Of a stretch of DNA of 32,185 nt, positions 1-10,532 are shown piece after piece. The DNA comes from an uncultured Ralstonia sp. (GTDB taxonomy: Bacteria; Pseudomonadota; Gammaproteobacteria; Burkholderiales; Burkholderiaceae). Numbering within the stretch: position 1 is the first letter of the stretch; each line of letters begins with the position of its first letter. Under the pieces are notes generated by a model. That model saw only the letters and a list, made by a program, of their open reading frames with translations. It was not told the DNA's origin and searched no databases. Location of the stretch: contig CAJXMR010000038.1 of NCBI GenBank assembly GCA_913056305.1, positions 1-32,185 of the forward strand. The letters are read 5' to 3'. The position numbers were made by a program, and so were the translations under genes.

Positions 1-482
1 TGGCCGACGCGCTGGCCGAGCAGGCCGACCTGCCGCGCGTGAGCCTGACCAACGTGGTGCTGGGCGCGCTGGCCGATTGCCTGCCGCGCGACATGGCGGT
101 GCGCCATCACGTGGTGCCGTTCTCCATCGGCGAGGATGGCTCGCTCAACATTGCCGTGTCGGAGCTGCCTGACGGCGCGGTGCTGCAGGAACTGGCGCAG
201 GCCGCCGGGCGCAAGGTCTCCTGCTTCATGGCGTGCGAGCACGAGATGCACGCCGAGCTGGCGCTGATGGCCGACCCGACCCGCCGTGCCACGGTGGTGT
301 TCGGCCCGGCGGCGTATTCCGCCACGCTGGCGGTGGAGTCGCTCGCAAGCATGAGCCAGAACCCCGGCCAGAAACCGGCGGAGCCGGTATCGCCGGCAAA
401 CCCTGCTACCGCGCCGCTCACGCCGGCGCCGGAGCCAGGCAAGCCCCCATCCAAATCCACTGTTGCCGGAGGTGTCGCATGA
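1..482 (+). CDS. nfrB: NfrB-type glycosyltransferase, C-terminal part (5' truncated)
   Basis: Only the last ~160 codons are present; the frame is open from base 3 and the start lies before the window. The visible part looks like the second half of an MshEN (GspE N-terminal-like) domain: a LPRVSL segment, a short helix, then hydrophobic strands (VVPFSIGEDGSLNIAVSE) and a final helix ending near ALMAD. A Pro/Ala-rich tail of about 65 residues follows. MshEN domains bind c-di-GMP, and NfrB, the family-2 glycosyltransferase of the phage N4 receptor system, carries one at its C-terminus. The downstream gene is NfrA-like and overlaps by 4 bp (ATGA), which is the main reason for the name. The glycosyltransferase domain, membrane helices and the c-di-GMP-contacting part of MshEN are outside the window, so the name rests on this tail plus context. 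A general GspE-like ATPase is less likely because of the nfrA and wecB neighbours. Confidence 0.7.
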   Translation, partial: ADALAEQADLPRVSLTNVVLGALADCLPRDMAVRHHVVPFSIGEDGSLNIAVSELPDGAVLQELAQAAGRKVSCFMACEHEMHAELALMADPTRRATVVFGPAAYSATLAVESLASMSQNPGQKPAEPVSPANPATAPLTPAPEPGKPPSKSTVAGGVA

Positions 483-2206
483 GCTCCGCTCGCGCTACTC
501 GCCGCCAGATCCTGAAGCGGTTGCGCTGGCCGATTGCGGCAGCGGTCTGGGCACTGTGCCAGGGTGTCCTGGCACAGCCCGCTGCAATGCTGCCGCTATC
601 GCCCGAGGCGTACCACTATGCTGATCGCGCCTACCAGTCGATCGCCGCCAACCAGCTGGACGTGGCCGAGCAATCGGCGCGGGCCGCGCTCGGCAAGCAG
701 CCCGACAGCCTGCAGCTCAACCTGCTGCTGCTGGATGTGCTGACGCGCAAGGGCCAACTGGATGCCGCGCGCGAATTGGCGGATACGCTCCGCACGCGCT
801 TTCCAGACCAGCCGCGCGTGTATGCGCAGCACGGCTTCCTGGCGCAGAAGGCTCAGCAGCCAGAGGTGGCGGAACAGGACTTTGCCAAGGCGCTGGAAGG
901 CACCGACTGGACCCCGCAGGAGCAACGCAACCTGCGCCTGGCATGGTCGGACAGCGCGTACGCGGCCAAGCATGTCGACGCTGCGCTGCAGGCCCTCGCC
1001 CCGCTGCAGGAGCAGCCCGCGCCGGACATCCAGATCCGCCTCGCGCAGGCGCGTCTCATGGTGGGTGACCGCGAAGGTGCCGCGCATGCCGCAGCGCTGG
1101 CCGGCGCCCAGGCCGACGACCCTGTCCGTCAGCGTTACGCGCGCGCGCTGTATGCCCAGGCGACCGAGCCCGATCAAGGGCCCGCCACGTCGCCCAACGA
1201 TCCGCGCGTGATCGGGCAGCGCGCACTGAACGAGGCCTACGACCACTTGCGCGCGCACGACGATCGCGCCGCATTGGAGGCCTTCCAGCGTGGCTTCGCA
1301 ACCGGTGAGGGCAACTGGGGCCACTACGCCGATGCCGCCTACGCCGCCAAGCGCCTGGGCGACAACCCGACTGCCATCTCGCTGTTCCACGCGAGCCTTG
1401 ACCACGCCGACAGTGACGGTGCCAACGGCGACGGTGACCAGCATCTCTCGGCCGACAGGCGCTTTGGCTATCGGCGCGAGGTCGAGCAAATGCAGCGCAC
1501 GTGGGGGGCGGTGCTGTCTACCGCGTATCAAGCCTCGGCATTCGGCCTGCCCACCAACAACAGCATCCTGCAGGGCGGCGCCGAGGTGTATTGGCAGCCT
1601 CCAGGCATCGGCTACCAGGACGGCCGCATCCTGCAGTTCTTCGTGCGCGGTTACGACAACCTCTACGACGGCTCGAGCGCGCCGGCAGGCCTGCCGACCG
1701 CGCAGGGTTCGGTGGGCGCGCGCTACAAGCCGATCAAGGACACCAACCTCGTGTTCACCGCCGAGCGGCTGATCAAGGTCGGCTCGCAGTCGATGAACGA
1801 CACGCTGCTGCGCATTGGCTATTCCACCGACCAGGGCATCGACCTGCAGGTTGCCAAGCCCCGCTGGCAGACCTGGCAGGCCTATGGCGAGGGCGCGTAC
1901 TTCGTCAATGCCGGACGGTTGATCGTGAGCGGGGAGGCGCGCTATGGCCACACCTGGCGCCTCGACACCGTCAGCGACCGCCTGACCGTCTACCCGCACA
2001 TTGTGCTGGCGGGCGATCACGACAACAAGGCCGTCAACCAGATGGCGCTGGGCGTGGGGCCGGGCCTCAACTTTCGCTACTGGTTTCGCGAATCGAAGTA
2101 CGCCGCACCGGCCAGCTGGCTGGATTTCACAGTGCAGTTTCGCGCGCCGCTGACGCATGCGGACCGTGCAAAGGGTTTGGTGGTACGCGCCATCTTGTGG
2201 TTCTAG
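479..2206 (+). CDS. nfrA: NfrA-like outer-membrane TPR/beta-barrel protein (phage N4 adsorption protein A family)
   Basis: 575 residues. The start is the ATG overlapping the nfrB stop (ATGA), preceded by GGAGGT five bases upstream; earlier in-frame starts would lie inside nfrB. Residues 1-33 form an export signal (basic n-region, then [16 protein letters not shown]). Residues ~45-310 hold alpha-helical TPR-like repeats (for example [20 protein letters not shown]). From ~330 to the end the sequence becomes a strand-rich domain with alternating aromatic and polar residues, matching the NfrA C-terminal domain, and it ends in Phe (ILWF) as outer-membrane barrel proteins do. In E. coli NfrA is the outer-membrane part of the N4 receptor and of a c-di-GMP-controlled polysaccharide export route. 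This copy is much shorter than E. coli NfrA (about 990 residues), probably through fewer TPRs. It is the likely export channel for the polymer made by NfrB. Confidence 0.85.
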
Positions 2207-2433
2207 CGAGATTGCGTGTCACGCATGAAACGATTTTGAATCGACTGGCGGGCCGCGCACCGAGAGGTGTCGCGGCACCTGTCCGGCAAAGGCGTCGCGA
2301 CACCGTGGGATGCGGCGCCGGGGTACATGGCATGGCCTTCGCTCAACAGCGAGGCCTGCCTTTGACATCGGGACAGGTGCGTCTGCCGCGGCACTTCCAT
2401 GAGGGGCCAGCGCGCAGGCAGCAGGGGGAGTCG
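2207..2433 (+). promoter_or_regulatory. Intergenic leader with overlapping inverted repeats before wecB
   Basis: This is the only sizeable gap in the polysaccharide operon. It contains an 8-bp perfect inverted repeat (GGTGTCGC at 2266-2273, GCGACACC at 2297-2304). Inside its loop lies GCACCTGTCC (2275-2284), which is perfectly complementary to GGACAGGTGC at 2371-2380. A smaller hairpin (AGGTG 2265-2269, CACCT 2276-2280) competes with both. The wecB Shine-Dalgarno (GGGGGAG, 2424-2430) follows. A TTGACA hexamer at 2362-2367 has no convincing -10 partner at normal spacing. The pairings are seen directly; a regulatory RNA role is inference. Confidence 0.35.
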
Positions 2434-3696
2434 ATGATGAGGAAGATCTTGACTGTGTTCGGCACGCGCCCGGAGGCCATCAAGATGGCGCCGCTGGTGC
2501 AGGCCTTGCAGGCCGAGGCGGGCATCGCGTCCGCTGTGTGCGTGAGCGCGCAGCACCGCGAGATGCTGGACCAGGTGTTGCGGCTGTTTGACATCGTGCC
2601 GGCGTTCGACCTGAACGTGATGCGCAAGGGGCAGACCTTGTCGGAGGTCACGTCGGCGGTGCTGGTGGGCATCAACCGCGTGCTGGATACGTATGCGCCC
2701 GATGCCGTGCTGGTCCACGGCGATACCACCACCACGCTCGCCACCAGCCTGGCGGCGTTCTACCGGCGCATCCCGCTGGGGCATGTGGAGGCGGGGCTGC
2801 GCACTCGCAACATCTGGTCGCCATGGCCGGAGGAGCTGAACCGCCGGCTGACCGATGCGGTCGCCACCTGGCACTTCGCCCCCACCGCGCAGTCCCGCCA
2901 GAACCTGCTGGACGAGGGCATCGAACCAGAGCGGATCACCATGACGGGCAACACCGTCATCGACGCGCTGCTGGCCGTCAAGTACCGGCTCGATTCGGAT
3001 CCGGCGCTGGCCGGCGAGATGGCTGCGCTCTATCCGTTCCTGCAGGCAAGCCGCAGGCTGATCCTGGTGACGGGGCACCGACGCGAGAACTTCGGCGAGC
3101 CGTTCGAGCGCTTCTGCGTGGCGCTGCGGCTGTTGGCGGCGCGCCATCCGGACGTGCAGATCGTCTATCCGGTGCACCTGAACCCGAACGTGCAGAAGCC
3201 CGTGCGGGCCATCCTCGGCGGGCACGACAACATCCACCTGATCGCCCCGCAGGGCTACCTGCCATTTGTCTACCTGATGGACCGCGCCTACCTGATCGTG
3301 ACCGATTCGGGCGGCATCCAGGAAGAGGCGCCCGCGCTGGGCAAGCCCGTGCTGGTCACGCGCGACACCACCGAGCGGCCCGAGGCCATCGCGGCCGGCA
3401 CCGCGCGGCTGGTGGGCACCGATACCGGCTGCATCGTGCGCGAAGCCGAGCTACTGCTCACCAACACATCCGAATATCTGCGCATGGCGCATGCGCACAA
3501 CCCTTACGGCGATGGGCAGGCCTGCCGGCGCATCGTCGATGCGCTGAAGGCGGCGCTCACCGCGCCCGAGCAGGACACGCAACGCGGCCCCCGGCATCTC
3601 CATGCCGATTCAGCGGCTGCGGATGCACAAGTCATCAAACTGGAAGCGGCACGCGCCACGGCGCCAGGGCCGTCCATTCATCGCCTGAACGGCTAG
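2434..3696 (+). CDS. wecB: UDP-N-acetylglucosamine 2-epimerase (non-hydrolysing)
   Basis: 420 residues. It interconverts UDP-GlcNAc and UDP-ManNAc in the cytoplasm, supplying ManNAc for polysaccharide. Family hallmarks in order: [11 protein letters not shown] (10-20), HGDTTTTLA with D97, HVEAGLRT with E119, WPEELNR with E133, TGHRRENFG with H215, and [17 protein letters not shown]97, E119, E133 and H215 correspond to the catalytic D95, E117, E131 and H213 of E. coli WecB. The core matches the usual ~376 residues; about 45 extra residues at the C-terminus look disordered. GGGGGAG lies just upstream of two adjacent ATGs (2434 and 2437); either could be used. In E. coli wecB sits in the enterobacterial common antigen locus and is borrowed by NfrAB, whereas here it lies next to nfrA, suggesting a dedicated precursor supply. 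Confidence 0.95.
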
Positions 3697-3705
3697 GAGG
3701 CTCTG

Positions 3706-4029
3706 ATGAAAGCGCAACGAATCGTCGGCGGATGGCTGCTCGCCTCCGCCCTGGCAGCGGGCTGGATGTTCTCGGTGCCCGCCCAGGCAGCGGGCTCGGA
3801 CACCACGATCACCGTCAAAGGCAAAGCGGAGCACGGGCCCAAGAAGCCCGGGCCGGGTGTGATGGACGTGGACGGCCGCGTGTTGCCGCCTGAGCGTCCG
3901 ACGGCGGGCCAGGTCGAGATCCATCCTGGCATGCCGCAAGAGGACCTGAGGGAAGCGGACCACGAGCGGGGTCCGAACTTTAACGCTGGGCAGTTCCGCA
4001 AGGCGGATGGCTCGGTGCATCGCGATTGA
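3706..4029 (+). CDS. Small exported protein of unknown function
   Basis: 107 residues, starting nine bases after the wecB stop with GGAGG at 3696-3700. An N-terminal signal peptide is clear: MKAQR, a hydrophobic core, then VPAQAA with likely cleavage around residue 28. The mature ~79 residues are rich in Gly, Pro, Lys, Asp and Glu, lack cysteine and have no predicted helix-rich fold (HGPKKPGPGVMDVDGR, then HPGMPQEDLREADHERGP). I do not recognise a family. Its place between the epimerase and the deacetylase-like gene, with short gaps on both sides, makes it a candidate periplasmic accessory of the polysaccharide system. The signal peptide, RBS and spacing support a real gene. Confidence 0.7.
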   Translation: MKAQRIVGGWLLASALAAGWMFSVPAQAAGSDTTITVKGKAEHGPKKPGPGVMDVDGRVLPPERPTAGQVEIHPGMPQEDLREADHERGPNFNAGQFRKADGSVHRD

Positions 4030-4043
4030 GCCGGAGAGCCATC

Positions 4044-5774
4044 ATGAAGACATTGCTGCGCAAATTTGCTTTGGCGCTGACGCTCGGGATCGGGCTGTTC
4101 TGCACCTCGCTGACGCTGACGGCGCCTGCGCAGGCGCAAACCTGCACGGTCGGCCTTGGGCCCGTGTGCGTGTCGCTGGGCCTGGGCACACCCGCCTCGG
4201 CGCAGACCACGCCGGCCAAGATGCTGATCCTGTATGACGCGCCACCCAACGACCAGTACACCAACCTGGGCATGTCGTACGCGATCATGCTCGACAACCT
4301 GCTCGGCCACTTCAATACGGCCGTCACGCTGCTGCCGGTGCAGAACTACACCGCCGGCATGACCGAGCAGTACACCGCCACGTTCTACATGGGGAGCTAC
4401 TACAACAACCCCATTCCGGCGGCGTTCCTGGCCGACGTGATGAGCACCAAAACGACCATCGTCTGGTTCAAGTACAACCTGTGGGAGCTGGCCTGGAACA
4501 CGGCCTACACGTTCACCGCCCGCTATGGCATCAACTATGTCAGCCTGGCCGGCATGAATGCGCCACCGTCGTCGACCAATCCCAACCCCGGGTTCTACGA
4601 TACGGTCTCGTACAAGAACCAGTCGATGGTCAAGTACTACGCCTTCAATGCCACCACCGGCGTGATCAGCGCCGACCCCGACATCGGCGTGACCTCGGTG
4701 GCCGATGCGACCAAGGCCACCAGCCTGGTGACCATCACCAACTCGGTGAGCAAGGCAACCGCGCCGTACGTGATCCGTTCGGGCAACTTCTGGTACTTCG
4801 CCGACATGCCGTTCTCGTACATCGGGCCGCGTGACCGCTACCTGGTCATCTGCGACATGCTGCACGACATCCTGGGCACCAACGCGCCGACGCAGCACCG
4901 CGCGCTGATCCGGCTGGAAGACGTGGATGCGCTGGTGTCGGTGCAGACCATGACCACGCTGACGGACTGGATGTACAGCAAGAACATCCCGTTCTCGATC
5001 GCGGCCATTCCGCTGTACAAGGACCCGAACGGCGTCTACAACGGCGGCGTGTCGCAGACCATCCACCTTGTCCATGCCAGCGGGCTCAAGCAGTCGTTGA
5101 ACTATGCGCGAGCGCGCGGCGGCAAGGTCCTGATGCACGGCTACACGCACCAGTACAGCAACATCCCGAACCTGGTCAACGCCGTCAGCGCCAACGACTT
5201 CGAGTTCTGGCTCGCCACGCAGAACCGTCCGGTGAATGAAGACTCGACGCAGTGGGCGTCGCAGCGGCTGTCGTCGGGCCTGCTGGAGCTGGAGCTCAAT
5301 GGTTACGTGCCGTTTGCATTCGAGGCGCCGCACTACCAGTCGTCGCCGCTGTCGATCAAGGCGGTGCCGAAGTATTTCGGCTCGGCATACCAGCGGGTGG
5401 TGTACTACACGTCCGATAACCCGCAGACGCTGAACTCGACGGCAGCCGGGCATGACTTCTCGGTCGGCCAGTTCTTCCCGTACATCATCAACAAGGACTA
5501 CTACGGCCAGCGTGTCATTCCGGAGAACCTGGGCAACATCGAATACAACATCTGCAACATCGACCCGTCGTCATGCCTGACGTACACCGCGCAGGACATC
5601 CTGACCAACGCGCAGTACGCGGTGGCGGTGCGCGATGGCTTTGCGTCGTGGTTCTTCCACCCGTTCTGGCTGGAGCCGAGCATCAACGAGCCGGGCTTTA
5701 CCGACTTCCAGGCGGTCATGAACGGCATCAGCGCGCTGGGCTTCACCTGGGTGGATCCCAGCACGGCGCAGTAG
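4044..5774 (+). CDS. DUF2334 polysaccharide deacetylase-like exported protein
   Basis: 576 residues. The ATG at 4044 follows GGAGAG with five bases spacing; a TTG at 4026 is possible but overlaps the previous stop. Residues 1-32 are a signal peptide (ending APAQAQ). Residues ~58-270 form an N-terminal region opening with AKMLILYD; residues ~284-570 form the DUF2334 domain. Catalytic-type motifs of the NodB/CE4-like fold are present: LEDVDA at 291-296 (acidic metal/base pair) and HGYTH at 365-369 (H-x3-H metal ligands). Family members are predicted to remove N-acetyl groups from polysaccharides. Together with the exported location and the wecB/nfrA operon, this suggests partial deacetylation of a ManNAc-containing polymer in the periplasm, in the manner of PgaB or PelA. 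The reaction is inferred; the fold and metal motif are visible. Confidence 0.8.
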   Translation: MKTLLRKFALALTLGIGLFCTSLTLTAPAQAQTCTVGLGPVCVSLGLGTPASAQTTPAKMLILYDAPPNDQYTNLGMSYAIMLDNLLGHFNTAVTLLPVQNYTAGMTEQYTATFYMGSYYNNPIPAAFLADVMSTKTTIVWFKYNLWELAWNTAYTFTARYGINYVSLAGMNAPPSSTNPNPGFYDTVSYKNQSMVKYYAFNATTGVISADPDIGVTSVADATKATSLVTITNSVSKATAPYVIRSGNFWYFADMPFSYIGPRDRYLVICDMLHDILGTNAPTQHRALIRLEDVDALVSVQTMTTLTDWMYSKNIPFSIAAIPLYKDPNGVYNGGVSQTIHLVHASGLKQSLNYARARGGKVLMHGYTHQYSNIPNLVNAVSANDFEFWLATQNRPVNEDSTQWASQRLSSGLLELELNGYVPFAFEAPHYQSSPLSIKAVPKYFGSAYQRVVYYTSDNPQTLNSTAAGHDFSVGQFFPYIINKDYYGQRVIPENLGNIEYNICNIDPSSCLTYTAQDILTNAQYAVAVRDGFASWFFHPFWLEPSINEPGFTDFQAVMNGISALGFTWVDPSTAQ

Positions 5775-5788
5775 CCATCGCGGTGGCT

Positions 5789-6697
5789 ATGAAAGGGGCA
5801 CGTTTGATACTGGCGATGGCGGCGCTGGTGTCGAGCGTGTCCACCCAGGCGGCCGAGCCGGCCGGCGCCTTGCCCGCCGGCTTTGCGCCGTTGTATGGGG
5901 TGACGGTCGATGCGGTGGACGACGTCGATGGCGTGGTCGACGCACTGCGCCACCTGTCGCGCACGCCCACGGCGCGCATCGTGTTCGACGAAGGGATGGG
6001 CGCGCAATACTATGCCGCCCCGGTGGAGGCCATCCGCCGTGTCGCCTACGTGATGGGCGAGCTGGTCGATTCGTCCACGCTCACGGAGTACTCCGCCCCG
6101 CAGGTTGGTGCCCGTGCCACGGCTTACCTCGACGTGCTTGGCGAGCACGTCGATCTCTGGGAAATCGGCAACGAGATCAACGGAGACTGGACCGGCCGCA
6201 CGCGAGACGTCGTCGACAAGACGCTGGCGGCCTACGACGCCGTCAGGCAGCGCGGCGCCCGCACCGCGCTCACGCTCTACTACAACGAAGGCTGCGCCGA
6301 GTCCCCGTCGCGTGCGATGTTCGCTTGGGTCGAGCACAACCTGCCGCCGCGCCTGCGCAACGGTGTCGACTACGTGTTCATCAGCTTCTATGAAGACGAC
6401 TGCAAGATCGCCGCGCCCGACTGGGATACGGTGTTCCAGCGGCTCGGCCATCTGTTCCCGCAGGCCGCGCTCGGCTTTGGCGAGGTCGGCACCCGGCACG
6501 CGTCACGCAAGCGCGCCTTGATCGCCCGCTACTACGGGCTGACAGTGCATCACCCGCGCTATGTCGGCGGCTACTTCTGGTGGACGTTCCGGCAAGACAT
6601 GGTGCCGCGCTCGCGGCCGCTGTGGCGCGACATCGAGGCGGCCTTCCAGGCCATGCCGACGCGGCCGCCTCAGTTGCCCGATTCGGTCACGCGTTAG
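5789..6697 (+). CDS. Putative exported glycoside hydrolase, clan GH-A-like
   Basis: 302 residues, 14 bases after the DUF2334 gene; the RBS is weak, so translational coupling is likely. A GTG at 5783 is an alternative start. Residues 1-22 are a signal peptide (LILAMAALVSSVSTQAAE). The remainder reads as a (beta/alpha)8 barrel: LYGVTVDA near strand 1, LWEIGNEINGDW at 123-134 (the Asn-Glu pair at the end of strand 4, proposed acid/base E129), FISFYEDD near strand 6, LGFGEVGTR with E232 as proposed nucleophile on strand 7, and GYFWWTF near strand 8. This is the classical retaining GH-A arrangement, but I cannot assign a numbered family. Its place after a deacetylase-like gene suggests trimming of the secreted polymer. 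It overlaps the convergent MscS gene by 11 bp at its 3' end. Confidence 0.65.
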   Translation: MKGARLILAMAALVSSVSTQAAEPAGALPAGFAPLYGVTVDAVDDVDGVVDALRHLSRTPTARIVFDEGMGAQYYAAPVEAIRRVAYVMGELVDSSTLTEYSAPQVGARATAYLDVLGEHVDLWEIGNEINGDWTGRTRDVVDKTLAAYDAVRQRGARTALTLYYNEGCAESPSRAMFAWVEHNLPPRLRNGVDYVFISFYEDDCKIAAPDWDTVFQRLGHLFPQAALGFGEVGTRHASRKRALIARYYGLTVHHPRYVGGYFWWTFRQDMVPRSRPLWRDIEAAFQAMPTRPPQLPDSVTR

Positions 6698-7820
6698 CGC
6701 GGGGTGTCATGCCGTGCGCCGTGCCAGTACCCGGCCGCGGTGGTGGCGTGTCGGACAGTACCGCTTCGTCTTCCTGGCGCGTCACGCGGATGGTGCGCGT
6801 GGGCAGCGCAAAGGCCGTGCCCAGCGCCTCCAGCCCCTCCAGGATGGCCAGGTTGATGCGCTGCTGGATGTCCATGTAGAGATTGAAATCCGGGCTGGTG
6901 ACGAAATACACCACTTCGAAGTTGAGCGCGTTCTCGCCAAACTCCTTGAAGTGCGCGCGATCGAAGCGCGTGTTGCCGGTAGCCTCCACCGCGGCGCGCA
7001 CGATGCCGGGAATCTTCTGCAGCTGCGCCGCGTGCGCGTCGTACGTCACGCCGAAGGTAAAGACGATACGTCGTTCCGACATCCGTTTGTAATTGTGGAT
7101 CGTGCTCTTGAGCAGCGCCGTGTTGGAGGTCACGATCTCCTCGCCCGACAGGCTGCGGATGCGCGTGGTCTTGAGCCCCACATGCTGCACCGTCCCCGCG
7201 ATGCTGTCGAAGACGATGAAATCGCCGATCTCGAACGGCTTGTCCAGCCCGATCGCCAGCGAGGCGAACAGGTCGCTCAGGATGCTCTGCACCGCCAGTG
7301 CCACGGCCACGCCGCCCACCCCCAGGCTGGCGATGAAGGCGGTAATGTTGACGCCTACGTTGGCCAGGATGGCCAGCAGCAGCATCGACCACAGCACAAA
7401 GCGCAGCACCCACGCCAGCATCGAGGTGATGACCGGATTGCGCGCCGCCGGCCCCTGCGCCGCAAGCTTCTCGCGCATCCACAGCGTGACGCCGCGGTTG
7501 AGCCACAGCGCAATCTGGAAGCCGATGATGACGAACCAGATGTGGTCGAGCCTGCCGGCAACGCGCGCCGGCAGGTCGATGAAATACGACCCGGCCAGCA
7601 ATGCCGCGAGCCCGATGAACAGCGGGTGCGTATCGTGCAGGACCGCCGCAGCCGTGGTGTCGAAACGAAGGCCGGTGCGCCGGGCGCGCGCCTCGAGCCG
7701 GTTGCCGATCAAGCGCAGCACGTTCGAGAGCAGCGCATAGACGATCACGACGGTCAGCGCCGCCGCCGCCCAGTCGCGCGCCGGCACGCGCAGGAAGGTG
7801 TGGGTATTGAGCCACTCCAT
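6687..7820 (-). CDS. MscS-family mechanosensitive ion channel
   Basis: 377 residues. The ATG at 7820 has CAGGGG six bases upstream; the ATG at 7826 would put the SD too close. Four or five hydrophobic segments precede the pore: AAAALTVVIVYALLSNVL, LFIGLAALLAGSYFI, IWFVIIGFQIALWL and WVLRFVLWSMLLLAILANVG. The pore helix and beta domain follow: GVGGVAVALAVQSILSD, then DKPFEIGDFI and GTVQHVGLKTTRIRS, the MscS signature. The protein is a small-conductance channel of the inner membrane that releases osmolytes on hypo-osmotic shock; the exact subfamily is not clear. The C-terminus ends in a Pro/Gly-rich tail. It is transcribed against the polysaccharide operon and follows the diguanylate cyclase gene on the same strand, with a hairpin between them. 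Confidence 0.92.
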   Translation of the reverse strand: MEWLNTHTFLRVPARDWAAAALTVVIVYALLSNVLRLIGNRLEARARRTGLRFDTTAAAVLHDTHPLFIGLAALLAGSYFIDLPARVAGRLDHIWFVIIGFQIALWLNRGVTLWMREKLAAQGPAARNPVITSMLAWVLRFVLWSMLLLAILANVGVNITAFIASLGVGGVAVALAVQSILSDLFASLAIGLDKPFEIGDFIVFDSIAGTVQHVGLKTTRIRSLSGEEIVTSNTALLKSTIHNYKRMSERRIVFTFGVTYDAHAAQLQKIPGIVRAAVEATGNTRFDRAHFKEFGENALNFEVVYFVTSPDFNLYMDIQQRINLAILEGLEALGTAFALPTRTIRVTRQEDEAVLSDTPPPRPGTGTAHGMTPRANA

Positions 7821-7869
7821 GAGCATCCCCTGACAGCAGTCACGGGAGGTGGCGCCGCACAAAACGTGC

Positions 7870-7895
7870 CCGACCCGGGGCGTGGCCGGGGTCGG
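7870..7895 (-). terminator. Hairpin between diguanylate cyclase and mscS genes
   Basis: Immediately after the cyclase stop codon, CCGACCC (7870-7876) pairs with GGGTCGG (7889-7895) around a 12-nt loop. On the - strand the stem is followed after five bases by TTTT. It could be a weak intrinsic terminator separating the cyclase from mscS. Confidence 0.35.
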
Positions 7896-9107
7896 CTAGT
7901 TTGCGGACGCGGCGGTGTTGGCCGCTTCGTCATCGTTGGCGCTGATCTTGCTGGAGGGCACGCACACCCGATTGCGGCCCTGGCGCTTGGCCTCGATCAG
8001 CGCCAGGTCGGCGTCGGCCAGCAGGTGGGCGAGATCCTGCCCAGGCTGCAATGGCGCGGCGCCCACGCTGATCGTCAGCGGACCCGCCGGGTGGCGGTGC
8101 GGGGCCACGGCCACCTTCAGTCGCTCGACCACGGCCAGGGTGGCGCCCAGGCTGCAGCCCGGCAGCAGCACCGCAAATTCGTCGCCACCCAGGCGCCCGA
8201 AGATGTCGTTCGGACGCAGCGCGCCGGCCAGCGCTTCGGACAGCGCCACCAGCGCTTCGTCGCCGGCGGCGTGGCCCCAGGCATCGTTGATGGACTTGAA
8301 ATGGTCGACGTCCAGATACAGCGCGCACAACGGCTCGCCGTGGTGCTGGGCGCGCTCCACCGCGAAGCCGCCCAGCTCGAAGAAGCGCTGGCGTGCCAGC
8401 TGGCCGGTCAGGTGATCGGTATTGGCGCGGTCGGTCAGGTGGAGCTCGGCAGCAAAGTGGCGCGCCATGGCCCGCAGCAGGTAGCGGTGGATGACCGCGC
8501 TGGCAGCGATGCAGATGGGCAGGTACAGCGCCAGCCCAAGCCAGGCATGGCGCATCACGGTTGCGGGCTCGTTGGCGGTTAGCAGGGCCACGACCGGCCC
8601 AGCCGCGCAGAGCGACATGGCGATGGCGAAATCGCGCCGCGTGAGCCACGCCGGGGCGGTCGCCAGCGGCATCAGGTAGAAGGCGGGCAGCACCCACTCG
8701 ATCCCGGCCTGATGCCCGAACGCGATGATGGCGACTTCCTCCGCCAGCAGGTGCGCCAGCGCCAGCGTGGGCCAGGCACCGGTATGCCGGTTGCGCTGCG
8801 CCACCAGCACGATGGTCGTCAGCAGCGCGAGCATGGCCAGCAGCGGTGCCAGTGCATGCAACAGCCCCGCCGCCCAGCCCAGCGCCACCGCAAAGCCGTA
8901 CGCCAGCACCCCGCACTTGCTGAGCGCAAGGATCATCGGCACGAAGTGGCGCGCCTGGTAGTCGCGCGAAGGCGCGCGTGCGTCAGGCAGGACGGAGAGG
9001 AGGGGAGGATTCGCGCTCAAGACAGTTTTAAAAAGCGTCCTGGCGCGTATGAGTGATGCGGGCGCTGGAGGCTTGTGGCCGGGGTAGTGCGCTACCGAAG
9101 CGCGCAT
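7896..9107 (-). CDS. Membrane-bound diguanylate cyclase (GGDEF)
   Basis: Makes c-di-GMP from two GTP. The N-terminal half has about six transmembrane segments (GVLAYGFAVALGWAAGLL through LYLPICIAASAVIHRYLL) with no recognised sensory domain. The C-terminal ~170 residues are a GGDEF domain: LYLDVDHFKSINDAWGH, then RLGGDEFAVLLPG with an intact active site. RPND lies five residues before GGDEF, the correct place for the RxxD allosteric inhibitory site. There is no EAL domain. The start is unresolved: the ATG at 9107 has no SD and may lie within promoter DNA (TAGAAT on this strand), while the next ATG at 8936 sits just before the first membrane helix. Its proximity to nfrB, with its c-di-GMP-binding-type domain, makes it a candidate activator of the polysaccharide synthase, but that is only inference. 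Confidence 0.88.
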   Translation of the reverse strand: MRASVAHYPGHKPPAPASLIRARTLFKTVLSANPPLLSVLPDARAPSRDYQARHFVPMILALSKCGVLAYGFAVALGWAAGLLHALAPLLAMLALLTTIVLVAQRNRHTGAWPTLALAHLLAEEVAIIAFGHQAGIEWVLPAFYLMPLATAPAWLTRRDFAIAMSLCAAGPVVALLTANEPATVMRHAWLGLALYLPICIAASAVIHRYLLRAMARHFAAELHLTDRANTDHLTGQLARQRFFELGGFAVERAQHHGEPLCALYLDVDHFKSINDAWGHAAGDEALVALSEALAGALRPNDIFGRLGGDEFAVLLPGCSLGATLAVVERLKVAVAPHRHPAGPLTISVGAAPLQPGQDLAHLLADADLALIEAKRQGRNRVCVPSSKISANDDEAANTAASAN

Positions 9108-9122
9108 TCTAACGGCGGGTTG

Positions 9123-9142
9123 GGCCGCCGTGCGGCCTTTTT
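9123..9142 (+). terminator. Orphan intrinsic-terminator-like hairpin on + strand
   Basis: GGCCGC (9123-9128), a 3-nt loop and GCGGCC (9132-9137) are followed by TTTTT. It points along the + strand although both flanking genes are on the - strand, so it would stop antisense transcription or is fortuitous. Confidence 0.3.
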
Positions 9143-9203
9143 CGTGGGGTCCCGCCCAGCGTGGGGTGCGGCAATGTTGCACGGCGCGGACGCCCGCGGT
9201 AGA

Positions 9204-10532
9204 TCAGCCCGCCAGCACCTGCCGCACCAGCCACACATTGGCGACGCTGATGATGCCGAACAGGCACCACGCCAGCATCGACGTTAAACGGGTGTTAACA
9301 AATGCGCCCATCAAGGTTTGGTCGTTTGTCATGCGGATCAGCGGAAACATCGCGAAGGGCAGCTGCAAGCCGAGCACCACCTGACTGATCACCAGCAACT
9401 TGCCCACGGCATGGTCGCCCAGCATCGCCACGCCGATGAAGGCCGGGATCAGCGCCAGCGCCCGCGTGATGAGACGCCGCTGCCAGCAGGGGATGCGCAG
9501 GTCGAGAAAGCCTTCCATCAGGATCTGGCCGGCGATGGTGCCGGTAAAGGTGGAGCTTTGCCCGGACGCCAGCAGCGCAATGCCGAACAGCAGTCCGGCC
9601 GCGGCGGTGCCCACGATGGGTTCCAGCAGGCGGTAGGTGTCCTGGATGTCGGCCACGTCCTGGTGGCCGTTGGCGTGGAAGGCCGCCGCCGCCAGCACCA
9701 GGATGGCGCCGTTGATCACCAGCGCCAGCGCCAGCGAAAAAATCGTATCCAGCCGCGACAGCCCGACCGCCTCGCGGCGTGCGGCCTCGGTGTCGGCCAC
9801 CACGCGGGTCTGCACCACGGATGAATGCAGATACAGGTTGTGCGGCATCACCGTCGCGCCGAGGATGCCGATGGCGAGGTACAGCGGCTCGCGTGTGCTG
9901 ATGGCCTGCCAAGAGGGCATCAGCCCGGCCGCCACCGACGGCCAGTGTGGGCGGATCAGCGCCAGCTCGACGAAGTAGCACAGCCCGATGGTCAGGATCA
10001 GCCCCAGCACGATGGCTTCGAGCTGGCGGAAGTTCTTGCCCTTGAGGCCCAGCACGATCAGCGTGTCCAGCGCGGTCAGGGCCACGCCGGCCAGGATGGG
10101 CACCCCCAGCAGCAGGTGGAAGGCCAGCGCGCAGCCGAGTACCTCGGCCAGGTCGCAGGCGACGATCGACAACTCCGCCAGCAGCCATTGCACGCGCACG
10201 GCGCCGGGGCGGTAGCGATCGCGCGAAAGCCGCGCCAGGTCCTTGCCTGTCACGATGCCCAGTCGCGCTGACAAACACTGCAGCACCATCGCCGCCAAGC
10301 CGGAGAGCAGCACCACGAACAGCAGCGCGTAGCCGTAGCGCGAGCCGGCCTCGATGTCGGTGGCCCAGTTGCCGGGGTCCATGTAGCCGACTGACACCAG
10401 CAGGCCCGGACCGGCAAAACGCAGCAGCTTTTTCCACAACGGCGCGTCCACCGGCATGGCGACGGTGCCGCGTACCTCGGACGGGCAGAACGGCGCGGTG
10501 GCGGTGGTGGGCAGGGCGGGTAGGCGGAACAT
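9204..10532 (-). CDS. mntH: Nramp-family divalent metal (Mn2+/Fe2+) transporter
   Basis: 442 residues with about 11 transmembrane segments, the usual size for bacterial MntH. Proton-coupled import of Mn2+ and related metals across the inner membrane. The two metal-binding motifs of the LeuT-fold family are present: DPGN at 52-55 in TM1 and MPHN at 229-232 in TM6, the latter followed by LYLHSS. Other family segments include ELSIVACDLAEVLG and LASGQSSTFTGTIAGQ. The first ATG is used, although its SD is poor and M26 (VAMPVDAPLWKKLL) is a possible alternative. The gene is divergent from the two-component operon, with a 342-bp region between. No clear MntR, Fur or Mn-riboswitch signature was found upstream. 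Confidence 0.93.
   Translation of the reverse strand: MFRLPALPTTATAPFCPSEVRGTVAMPVDAPLWKKLLRFAGPGLLVSVGYMDPGNWATDIEAGSRYGYALLFVVLLSGLAAMVLQCLSARLGIVTGKDLARLSRDRYRPGAVRVQWLLAELSIVACDLAEVLGCALAFHLLLGVPILAGVALTALDTLIVLGLKGKNFRQLEAIVLGLILTIGLCYFVELALIRPHWPSVAAGLMPSWQAISTREPLYLAIGILGATVMPHNLYLHSSVVQTRVVADTEAARREAVGLSRLDTIFSLALALVINGAILVLAAAAFHANGHQDVADIQDTYRLLEPIVGTAAAGLLFGIALLASGQSSTFTGTIAGQILMEGFLDLRIPCWQRRLITRALALIPAFIGVAMLGDHAVGKLLVISQVVLGLQLPFAMFPLIRMTNDQTLMGAFVNTRLTSMLAWCLFGIISVANVWLVRQVLAG

Follow-up and report, generated by a model that had tools for sequence, protein, structure and literature searches.

The window analysed here opens contig C38 of a 5.47-Mb draft genome of the genus Ralstonia and is 32,185 bases long. 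At its start, from position 3 to 6697, six co-directional genes form a predicted Nfr-type exopolysaccharide locus, in which a truncated nfrB, nfrA and wecB are followed by genes for a small exported protein, a DUF2334 protein and a protein resembling glycoside hydrolases (GH) of clan GH-A. The six genes are listed below.

3–482, + strand: nfrB', the last 159 amino acids (aa) of a predicted cyclic di-GMP (c-di-GMP)-activated glycosyltransferase family 2 (GT2) synthase, covering the C-terminal tail and, incompletely, the MshEN domain.
479–2206, + strand: nfrA, 575 aa, TPR and predicted outer-membrane export pore with a C-terminal Phe (PF13283, TPR_19).
2437–3696, + strand: wecB, predicted non-hydrolysing UDP-GlcNAc 2-epimerase for supply of UDP-N-acetylmannosamine (UDP-ManNAc) (TIGR00236); an in-frame ATG is also present at 2434.
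3706–4029, + strand: small protein of 107 aa, exported or anchored in the membrane, which probably partners the DUF2334 protein.
4044–5774, + strand: DUF2334 protein, 576 aa, with a signal peptide, a Rossmann/GATase-like N-domain and a predicted carbohydrate esterase (CE)-type deacetylase domain (PF10096).
5789–6697, + strand: exported clan GH-A-like glycoside hydrolase, 302 aa, assigned by predicted structure and Foldseek.

The initial annotation had described six genes in one direction with short gaps or overlaps and one larger gap, and this layout was recovered. The nfrA gene overlaps nfrB by 4 nt, the interval between nfrA and wecB (2207–2433, 227 bp) is the sole large gap, and the other intergenic gaps measure 9–14 bp. 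The first base of the window coincides with the start of the contig, and the remainder of nfrB lies beyond the assembly break. Since no sigma-70-like promoter was found in positions 1–9500 (0 versus 1.4 expected by shuffling), the operon call rests on spacing and synteny; 8 terminator-like sites were counted in the same interval, versus 4.5 expected (standard deviation 2.2).

Of the 16 Ralstonia genomes searched, 15, among them that of the window, had an orthologue of the GH-A-like protein (at least 69% identical). Thirteen loci were fetched from the 14 others (L028–L040), and all 13 kept the order nfrB-nfrA-wecB-small protein-DUF2334-GH-A, so the six-gene arrangement is beyond chance. The sixteenth genome, G012, lacked the GH-A protein, full-length DUF2334 and NfrA all together.

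The nfrB' fragment matched MshEN (PF05157, E=6.4e-12), as the initial annotation had proposed, and the nfrB family model NF012033/PRK15489 at model positions 538–656 of 703. Because the missing 5' part was not found elsewhere in the assembly, where the nfrB family search returned this fragment and one weak, unrelated-looking match, NfrB was examined in relatives. There the upstream gene encodes a GT2 synthase, with Pfam matches to both GT2 and MshEN in L030 and L047. The identity of this upstream gene had been set beforehand as a test, and the full-length nfrB of all 13 fetched Ralstonia loci carried the D, TED and QxxRW motifs, with the equivalents of E. coli D169, D267 and W330 retained; in the alignment the MshEN residues L490, G491 and L537 were likewise retained in all 13. 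The glycosyltransferase residues (equivalents of E. coli D169, TED and QxxRW) were kept in each of the 94 aligned NfrB rows besides E. coli, 68 of which stem from DUF2334 loci. The L030 NfrB shared 35% identity with E. coli NfrB in an alignment of 683 residues and also matched the c-di-GMP motif NF053729. NfrA matched NfrA_C (PF13283, E=3.6e-47) and TPR and ended in ...ILWF, which agrees with the TPR plus Phe-terminated barrel first read from it. WecB matched TIGR00236 (E=3.4e-151) and shared 64% identity with WecB of E. coli K-12 in an alignment of 376 residues. R10, K15, D95, E117, E131, R135, H213 and E296 were conserved there, a set that includes catalytic residues, in line with the initial annotation. 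The elements of an NfrBA/NGR (phage N4 glycan receptor) system were thus found, namely GT2 motifs (in the relatives), MshEN, and NfrA with TPR and the NfrA_C pore.

According to the accessible text of the E. coli studies, NfrB binds c-di-GMP and infection by phage N4 requires its glycosyltransferase and MshEN residues together with WecB (PMC8669469, PMC8669472). The pathway there needs wecB and not the remaining genes for enterobacterial common antigen (ECA), and a ManNAc polymer was proposed as the product, with its chemistry unassigned in that text (PMC8669472). From the retained residues, the MshEN domain of the Ralstonia NfrB would be a c-di-GMP switch of polymer synthesis.

The DUF2334 protein scored well over the Pfam PF10096 cut-off (145.8 versus 26 bits; E=1.6e-42). 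Its predicted structure (mean pLDDT 88.6) consisted of a Rossmann-like N-domain and a CE-type barrel, and the top fold match in the PDB was Agd3 (6nwz; E=9e-10), followed by the human heparan N-deacetylase NDST1, so the earlier deacetylase-like label agrees with the predicted fold. Among the other matches, the barrel resembled CE4 enzymes such as ArnD, as well as acetyl xylan esterases, and the N-domain resembled glutaminase- or ThuA-like folds. The alignment with 6nwz spanned 642 columns at probability 1.00, but with a TM score of only 0.36–0.40 and a root mean square deviation of 10.9. Agd3, the founding member of family CE18, removes acetyl groups from a polysaccharide of fungal biofilms; its catalytic motifs are Asp-Asp, HxxxH, Arg and His (PMC7229062). 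Across 49 aligned DUF2334 rows E292-D293, H365, H369 and H539 were invariant, and they fit motifs CM1, CM2 and CM4 of Agd3, with Glu replacing the first Asp of CM1 (E292-D293 and not D-D). R408 and R451 were invariant too and are candidates for the Arg of the CE18 motif. The profile of the 49 rows gave no match at E≤1 among PDB sequences, and the C-terminal beta domain of CE18 was absent after the CE domain in the model. Membership of CE18 was rejected for these reasons (no sequence link to Agd3, no C-terminal beta domain, a differing CM1). Judged from the model, the protein probably works like Agd3 and CE18 enzymes, although it is not filed as CE18. Bacterial Agd3 homologues have been reported from uncharacterised operons with GH114 genes, to which Gram-negatives add Pel-like outer-membrane parts; Burkholderia is among the named hosts, and Nfr and ManNAc are unmentioned in the accessible text (PMC7229062).

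Strict motif patterns missed variants (glycosyltransferase 45/72, GH-A 45/47, DUF2334 80/102). With looser patterns, the 83 DUF2334 open reading frames in L050–L129 gave RxED in 83, HGxTH in 82 and the His motif in 81.

The protein encoded by the last gene was predicted to form a TIM barrel (mean pLDDT 84.7), and its closest Foldseek neighbours were Gas2, a GH72 enzyme, and GH5 and GH10 enzymes (TM approx. 0.5–0.6, 10–15% identity). In clan GH-A the acid/base Glu follows strand 4 and the nucleophile Glu lies on strand 7 of a (beta/alpha)8 barrel. The model has such a barrel: strand 4 ends in E129, strand 7 carries E232, and neither residue varied among 25 aligned rows. The GH-A-like assignment of the initial annotation thus agrees with the predicted fold. 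No match to Pfam or NCBIfam was obtained at E≤0.1, and matches to PDB sequences were at E 0.25 or worse, so that the gene is given no named GH family. A second GH-A paralogue, 40–44% identical, was present in 15 of the 16 Ralstonia genomes, the window's own included. It was located at L049:2575–3621, L044:9112–10107 and L045:9338–10333, with no other cluster gene nearby in these three stretches.

A hydrophobic stretch lies near the N-terminus of the small protein, and its C-terminal half is conserved in the alignment; neither Pfam nor NCBIfam gave a family match. Its relatives lay directly upstream of DUF2334 in 40 of the 80 named DUF2334 loci, which are the best 80 of 375 relatives found. As it accompanies DUF2334 both in loci linked to nfr or wecB (31/63) and in unlinked ones (9/17), these positions suggest that it is a partner of the DUF2334 protein.

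A further barrel gene, DUF4434-like, is found repeatedly in Nfr clusters, whether these are of the deacetylase or of the O-acetylation type. A local hidden Markov model (HMM) detected it in 44 of the 80 DUF2334 loci, for example at L064:11665–12654 and L122:18563–19555, while Pfam DUF4434 was over its cut-off in L122 and under it or silent in L047, L064, L066, L150 and L153. This gene may be a second or alternative hydrolase.

We regard it as fairly probable that the six genes constitute a c-di-GMP-switched exopolysaccharide system in which UDP-ManNAc is polymerised, partly de-N-acetylated, cut by the GH-A enzyme and exported through NfrA. WecB would make UDP-ManNAc, which NfrB would polymerise at the inner membrane upon binding of c-di-GMP to MshEN. 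The DUF2334 protein, periplasmic and with the small anchored protein as its tether or helper, would then strip the N-acetyl group from part of the chain and render it cationic. The GH-A enzyme would cut or trim the chain, either to set its length or to clear away stray polymer, and NfrA would export the product. Read from the sequence, the gene content, the intact catalytic residues and the co-localisation across reshuffled gene orders are firm, and the deacetylase-like and GH-A folds are predicted. We infer the sugar of the polymer, the N-acetyl group as the bond broken, the target bond of the hydrolase and the order of the steps; those after NfrB would follow from predicted fold and gene company. 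The interpretation given in the initial annotation is partly supported; the ManNAc basis, de-N-acetylation and cutting of the polymer, and a role in biofilm or as phage receptor, are its putative elements.

The pairing of DUF2334 with nfr genes extends beyond the genus. In a Burkholderiaceae sample of 249 genomes, searched for full-length DUF2334 (alignment A4, E≤1e-40) and for NfrA by NfrA_C, 37 had the former and 80 the latter. All 37 also had NfrA, 36 of them within 15 kb (this distance count leaves out two fragment rows, the second pieces of the G518 nfrA and the G536 DUF2334 gene). The co-occurrence gave a Fisher p of 4e-22, but the 37 genomes fall in 4 genera and are hence not independent. 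Full-length DUF2334 was found in seven genomes of a class-wide sample of 360, one of them being the window's own; in 4 of the other 6 it was linked to nfr genes, and in the remaining two it lay on a 5.5-kb contig or at a contig end. The 80 named loci were scored with HMMs built from the window, its relatives or studied loci, in which matches are by construction; L050–L058 duplicate the Ralstonia loci of several of L028–L040, and L046 equals L068. nfrB was found in 60, nfrA in 55 and wecB in 48 of the 80. When the count was limited to the 51 loci whose flanks each extended 8.5 kb or more, nfrB and nfrA were present in 40, and 39 of these 40 also had a GH-A or DUF4434-like gene. Such well-flanked nfr loci fell into 14 arrangements, distinguished by gene order, by orientation or by which genes were present, and nfr-linked hosts included Burkholderia, Trinickia, Paraburkholderia, Ramlibacter, Comamonas, Collimonas, Halopseudomonas, Microbulbifer and a metagenome-assembled genome labelled Omnitrophota. 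That a DUF2334 gene and a hydrolase gene should be conserved with nfrAB-wecB had also been fixed in advance as a test, and in related as well as distant genomes from many genera a TIM-barrel hydrolase gene and DUF2334 indeed accompany these genes. A quickly built tree of 95 NfrB proteins, in which several branches are long, requires 6 changes of the DUF2334 label, and starred branches force 5 of them; once four long rows were removed, the two numbers were 5 and 4. The pairing was accordingly gained or lost several times and is not one frozen block.

This pattern also bears on whether the DUF2334 and GH-A proteins are mere passengers of a polysaccharide locus that degrade foreign or spent polymer outside the cell. 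The GH-A paralogue standing apart from the operon, in L044, L045 and L049 free of any cluster gene, and the pairs of small protein and DUF2334 that occur without nfr genes would fit such a role. The tight one-operon spacing of the two genes argues against it, as does the fact that they joined nfrB more than once, in different gene orders and on different NfrB lineages, and we consider it very improbable.

A different question is whether the sugar is ManNAc. NfrB might use another UDP-HexNAc (GlcNAc), with the adjacent WecB serving a different envelope polymer. The accessible text on E. coli only proposes ManNAc and gives no chemical identification of the NfrB polymer (PMC8669472), and 11 of the 40 well-flanked nfrB-linked loci had no wecB in the stretch covered. 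Against this, wecB was kept in the remaining 29 of the 40 across many gene orders, it was present in 25 of 26 examined Nfr clusters without DUF2334, and E. coli requires it and not the other ECA genes. We give this explanation only a slight chance, and a ManNAc-based chain is the version retained here.

The 26 Nfr clusters without DUF2334 are a hand-picked subset of the NfrA hits (13 and 96 rows). Among them, L158 and L171 are truncated at contig ends, and the genomes of L174 and L175 additionally carry a DUF2334 cluster. Genes for AlgX or MBOAT O-acetyltransferases, searched for with HMMs built from L151 and L154, in which matches are by construction, were found in 12 of the 26, and in none of the 80 named DUF2334 loci or the 13 Ralstonia loci. 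The comparison of 12/26 with 0/40 well-flanked DUF2334 clusters gave a Fisher p of 2e-6 with relatedness ignored; under control by the tree 5 independent pairs were left, too few for significance.

These counts touch on a further explanation, in which the core makes the polymer and DUF2334 is an O-deacetylase, or a polysaccharide-binding or inactive CE fold, the product being a neutral ManNAc polymer. Glu at the base position, where Agd3 has Asp, is compatible with this explanation, as CE folds act on both O- and N-acetyl groups and acetyl xylan esterases are among the fold matches. The invariance of D293, H365, H369 and H539 and the N-deacetylase nature of the two best fold matches speak for N-deacetylation instead, and with no AlgX or MBOAT gene in any of the 80 DUF2334 loci a source of O-acetyl groups is not evident. 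We regard this explanation as unlikely and favour partial de-N-acetylation.

Several observations weigh against the proposed deacetylating system as a whole. The TM score of the Agd3 match is low, the presumed base is Glu, the DUF2334 profile has no counterpart among PDB sequences, and the GH-A fold is uninformative on substrate. PF10096 was found in 6 of 14 control genomes and in 49 of 300 order-wide genomes, and with such a broad distribution the Pfam name DUF2334 alone says little. In the order-wide sample (n=300) 13 genomes have NfrA_C, and of these 13 the window's genome alone has a PF10096 match (E≤0.001). Within the Burkholderiaceae sample 43 of the 80 NfrA genomes had no full-length DUF2334, and 17 of 53 DUF2334 copies lay away from NfrA, some of them contig-end fragments. 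None of nfrB, nfrA and wecB was found in the stretch covered of 17 of the 80 DUF2334 loci, and the missing wecB of 11 well-flanked loci belongs here as well. From the 17 loci and the 17 copies it follows that DUF2334 may act elsewhere or in trans.

The distribution of the O-acetyltransferase genes hints that DUF2334 and AlgX/MBOAT are alternative modification modules on one Nfr synthase. As a wider and tentative idea, which we judge somewhat more apt to fail than to hold, the locus could represent a third kind of cationic biofilm polysaccharide beside poly-N-acetylglucosamine (PNAG) and Pel/galactosaminogalactan (GAG), a widespread and unrecognised poly-ManNAc that is partly de-N-acetylated (poly-mannosamine), with an Nfr chassis that takes either an N-deacetylation module (small protein and DUF2334) or an O-acetylation module (AlgX/MBOAT). 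If true, the choice of module would change the charge of the polymer and which glycan-deacetylating N4-like phages can use it. Both types occur in the one genome of Ralstonia G006, which has a DUF2334/GH-A cluster (L028) and a wecB-bcsB-like-nfrB-nfrA-AlgX-MBOAT cluster (L174). No phage-borne homologue of DUF2334 or the GH-A protein was found in 50,697 phage records at E≤1e-3.

The E. coli NfrBA-YbcH system with WecB (NGR) shares with the Ralstonia locus the GT2 synthase with MshEN, the TPR and pore of NfrA and the need for WecB. The E. coli operon is nfrB-nfrA-ybcH, with wecB apart in the ECA locus, whereas the Ralstonia clusters carry wecB, DUF2334 and GH-A; a ybcH profile gave no match in the 13 Ralstonia loci. 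This third E. coli gene did co-occur with DUF2334 in L146 (G701) and in L126 and L128 (Microbulbifer), so the two are not alternatives. The published wecB-bcsB-like-nfrB-nfrA-AlgX/MBOAT clusters of Achromobacter and Simplicispira (PMC8669472, PMC8669469) have nfrB, nfrA and wecB in common with the Ralstonia type, and this kind of cluster often has a DUF4434-like barrel gene, but they contain O-acetyltransferases where the Ralstonia type has DUF2334.

The Aspergillus GAG cluster (Uge3, Gtb3, Agd3, Sph3, Ega3) follows the same logic of epimerase, synthase, deacetylase and hydrolase (PMC7229062). It differs from the Ralstonia locus in being fungal, in its GalNAc/Gal polymer and in hydrolases of other families. 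NfrA and c-di-GMP control are not known to be part of the GAG system. The Pel (PelA-G) and Pga (PgaABCD) systems are c-di-GMP-controlled and synthase-dependent, with a TPR/pore exporter and a periplasmic deacetylase and glycosidase; sensing takes place via PelD and PgaD, and in Nfr MshEN takes that place. The Ralstonia locus differs by encoding an epimerase and by having its deacetylase and hydrolase as two distinct proteins, which belong to other families. A parallel to Pga and Pel had been drawn initially; the shared logic stands, and the GAG cluster is at least as close a parallel. PelA has a hydrolase domain fused to its deacetylase; a PelA-like identity was rejected on account of the separate genes and of a hydrolase without Pfam match whose fold neighbours are Gas2, GH5 and GH10. 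PgaB is a fusion of deacetylase and GH domains; a PgaB-like identity was likewise rejected, as the genes are separate and a PgaB GH domain came up no higher than rank 47 among the fold matches.

Linkage of nfrB with wecB and diguanylate cyclases has already been published (PMC8669469, PMC8669472), as have Nfr clusters with AlgX-like O-acetyltransferases and a BcsB homologue (PMC8669472, PMC8669469). Since Nfr clusters are modular and of several types and the nfrB-nfrA-wecB core was known, calling the locus a complete version, as the initial annotation did, was too strong. It was aware of no description of the six-gene combination; nfrAB-wecB linkage and the O-acetylated type are known, and the DUF2334/GH-A type is apparently undescribed in the open literature searched. 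No description of this type was found there, most subscription journals being outside the scope; a single paper mentions DUF2334, and none mentions it together with exopolysaccharide. A report on Actinoplanes (PMC13390465) was, from its accessible text, unrelated.

In E. coli the NfrAB polymer is the receptor of N4 and other coliphages, its ManNAc basis being only proposed in the accessible text (PMC8669472). The Ralstonia locus is probably a better-equipped relative of the system behind this little-understood polymer, which E. coli displays and to which phage N4 attaches. With an epimerase, a deacetylase and a hydrolase of its own, it offers enzymes by which the Nfr polymer could be released, cleaved and identified, makes the ManNAc hypothesis directly testable, and suggests a function for DUF2334 in an Nfr setting.

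Two genes on the opposite strand follow the cluster.

6687–7862, − strand: MscS-type channel gene (PF00924, E=1.5e-18), a convergent neighbour not counted in the pathway.
7896–9182, − strand: diguanylate cyclase (GGDEF) gene (PF00990, E=1.7e-35).

The mscS gene adjoined the GH-A gene in all 13 Ralstonia loci L028–L040. The GGDEF gene, a possible local source of c-di-GMP, lay beside mscS in 11 of the 13 and approx. 3.8 kb off in L028; the contig of L038 ends earlier.

DUF2334 genes were also seen in other settings. On a Streptomyces linear plasmid (L043, 3706–9581) a GH16-annotated gene, wecB and a GT2 gene stand beside a DUF2334 gene whose product is 33% identical to that of the window, possibly a Gram-positive version of the cluster without NfrA. 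A Burkholderia vietnamiensis plasmid (L041, 11504–13605) carries a small-protein-like open reading frame and DUF2334, flanked by diguanylate cyclase genes and without nfr genes. At L095:9947–15313, three tandem DUF2334 genes lie inside one nfrB-nfrA-DUF4434 cluster.

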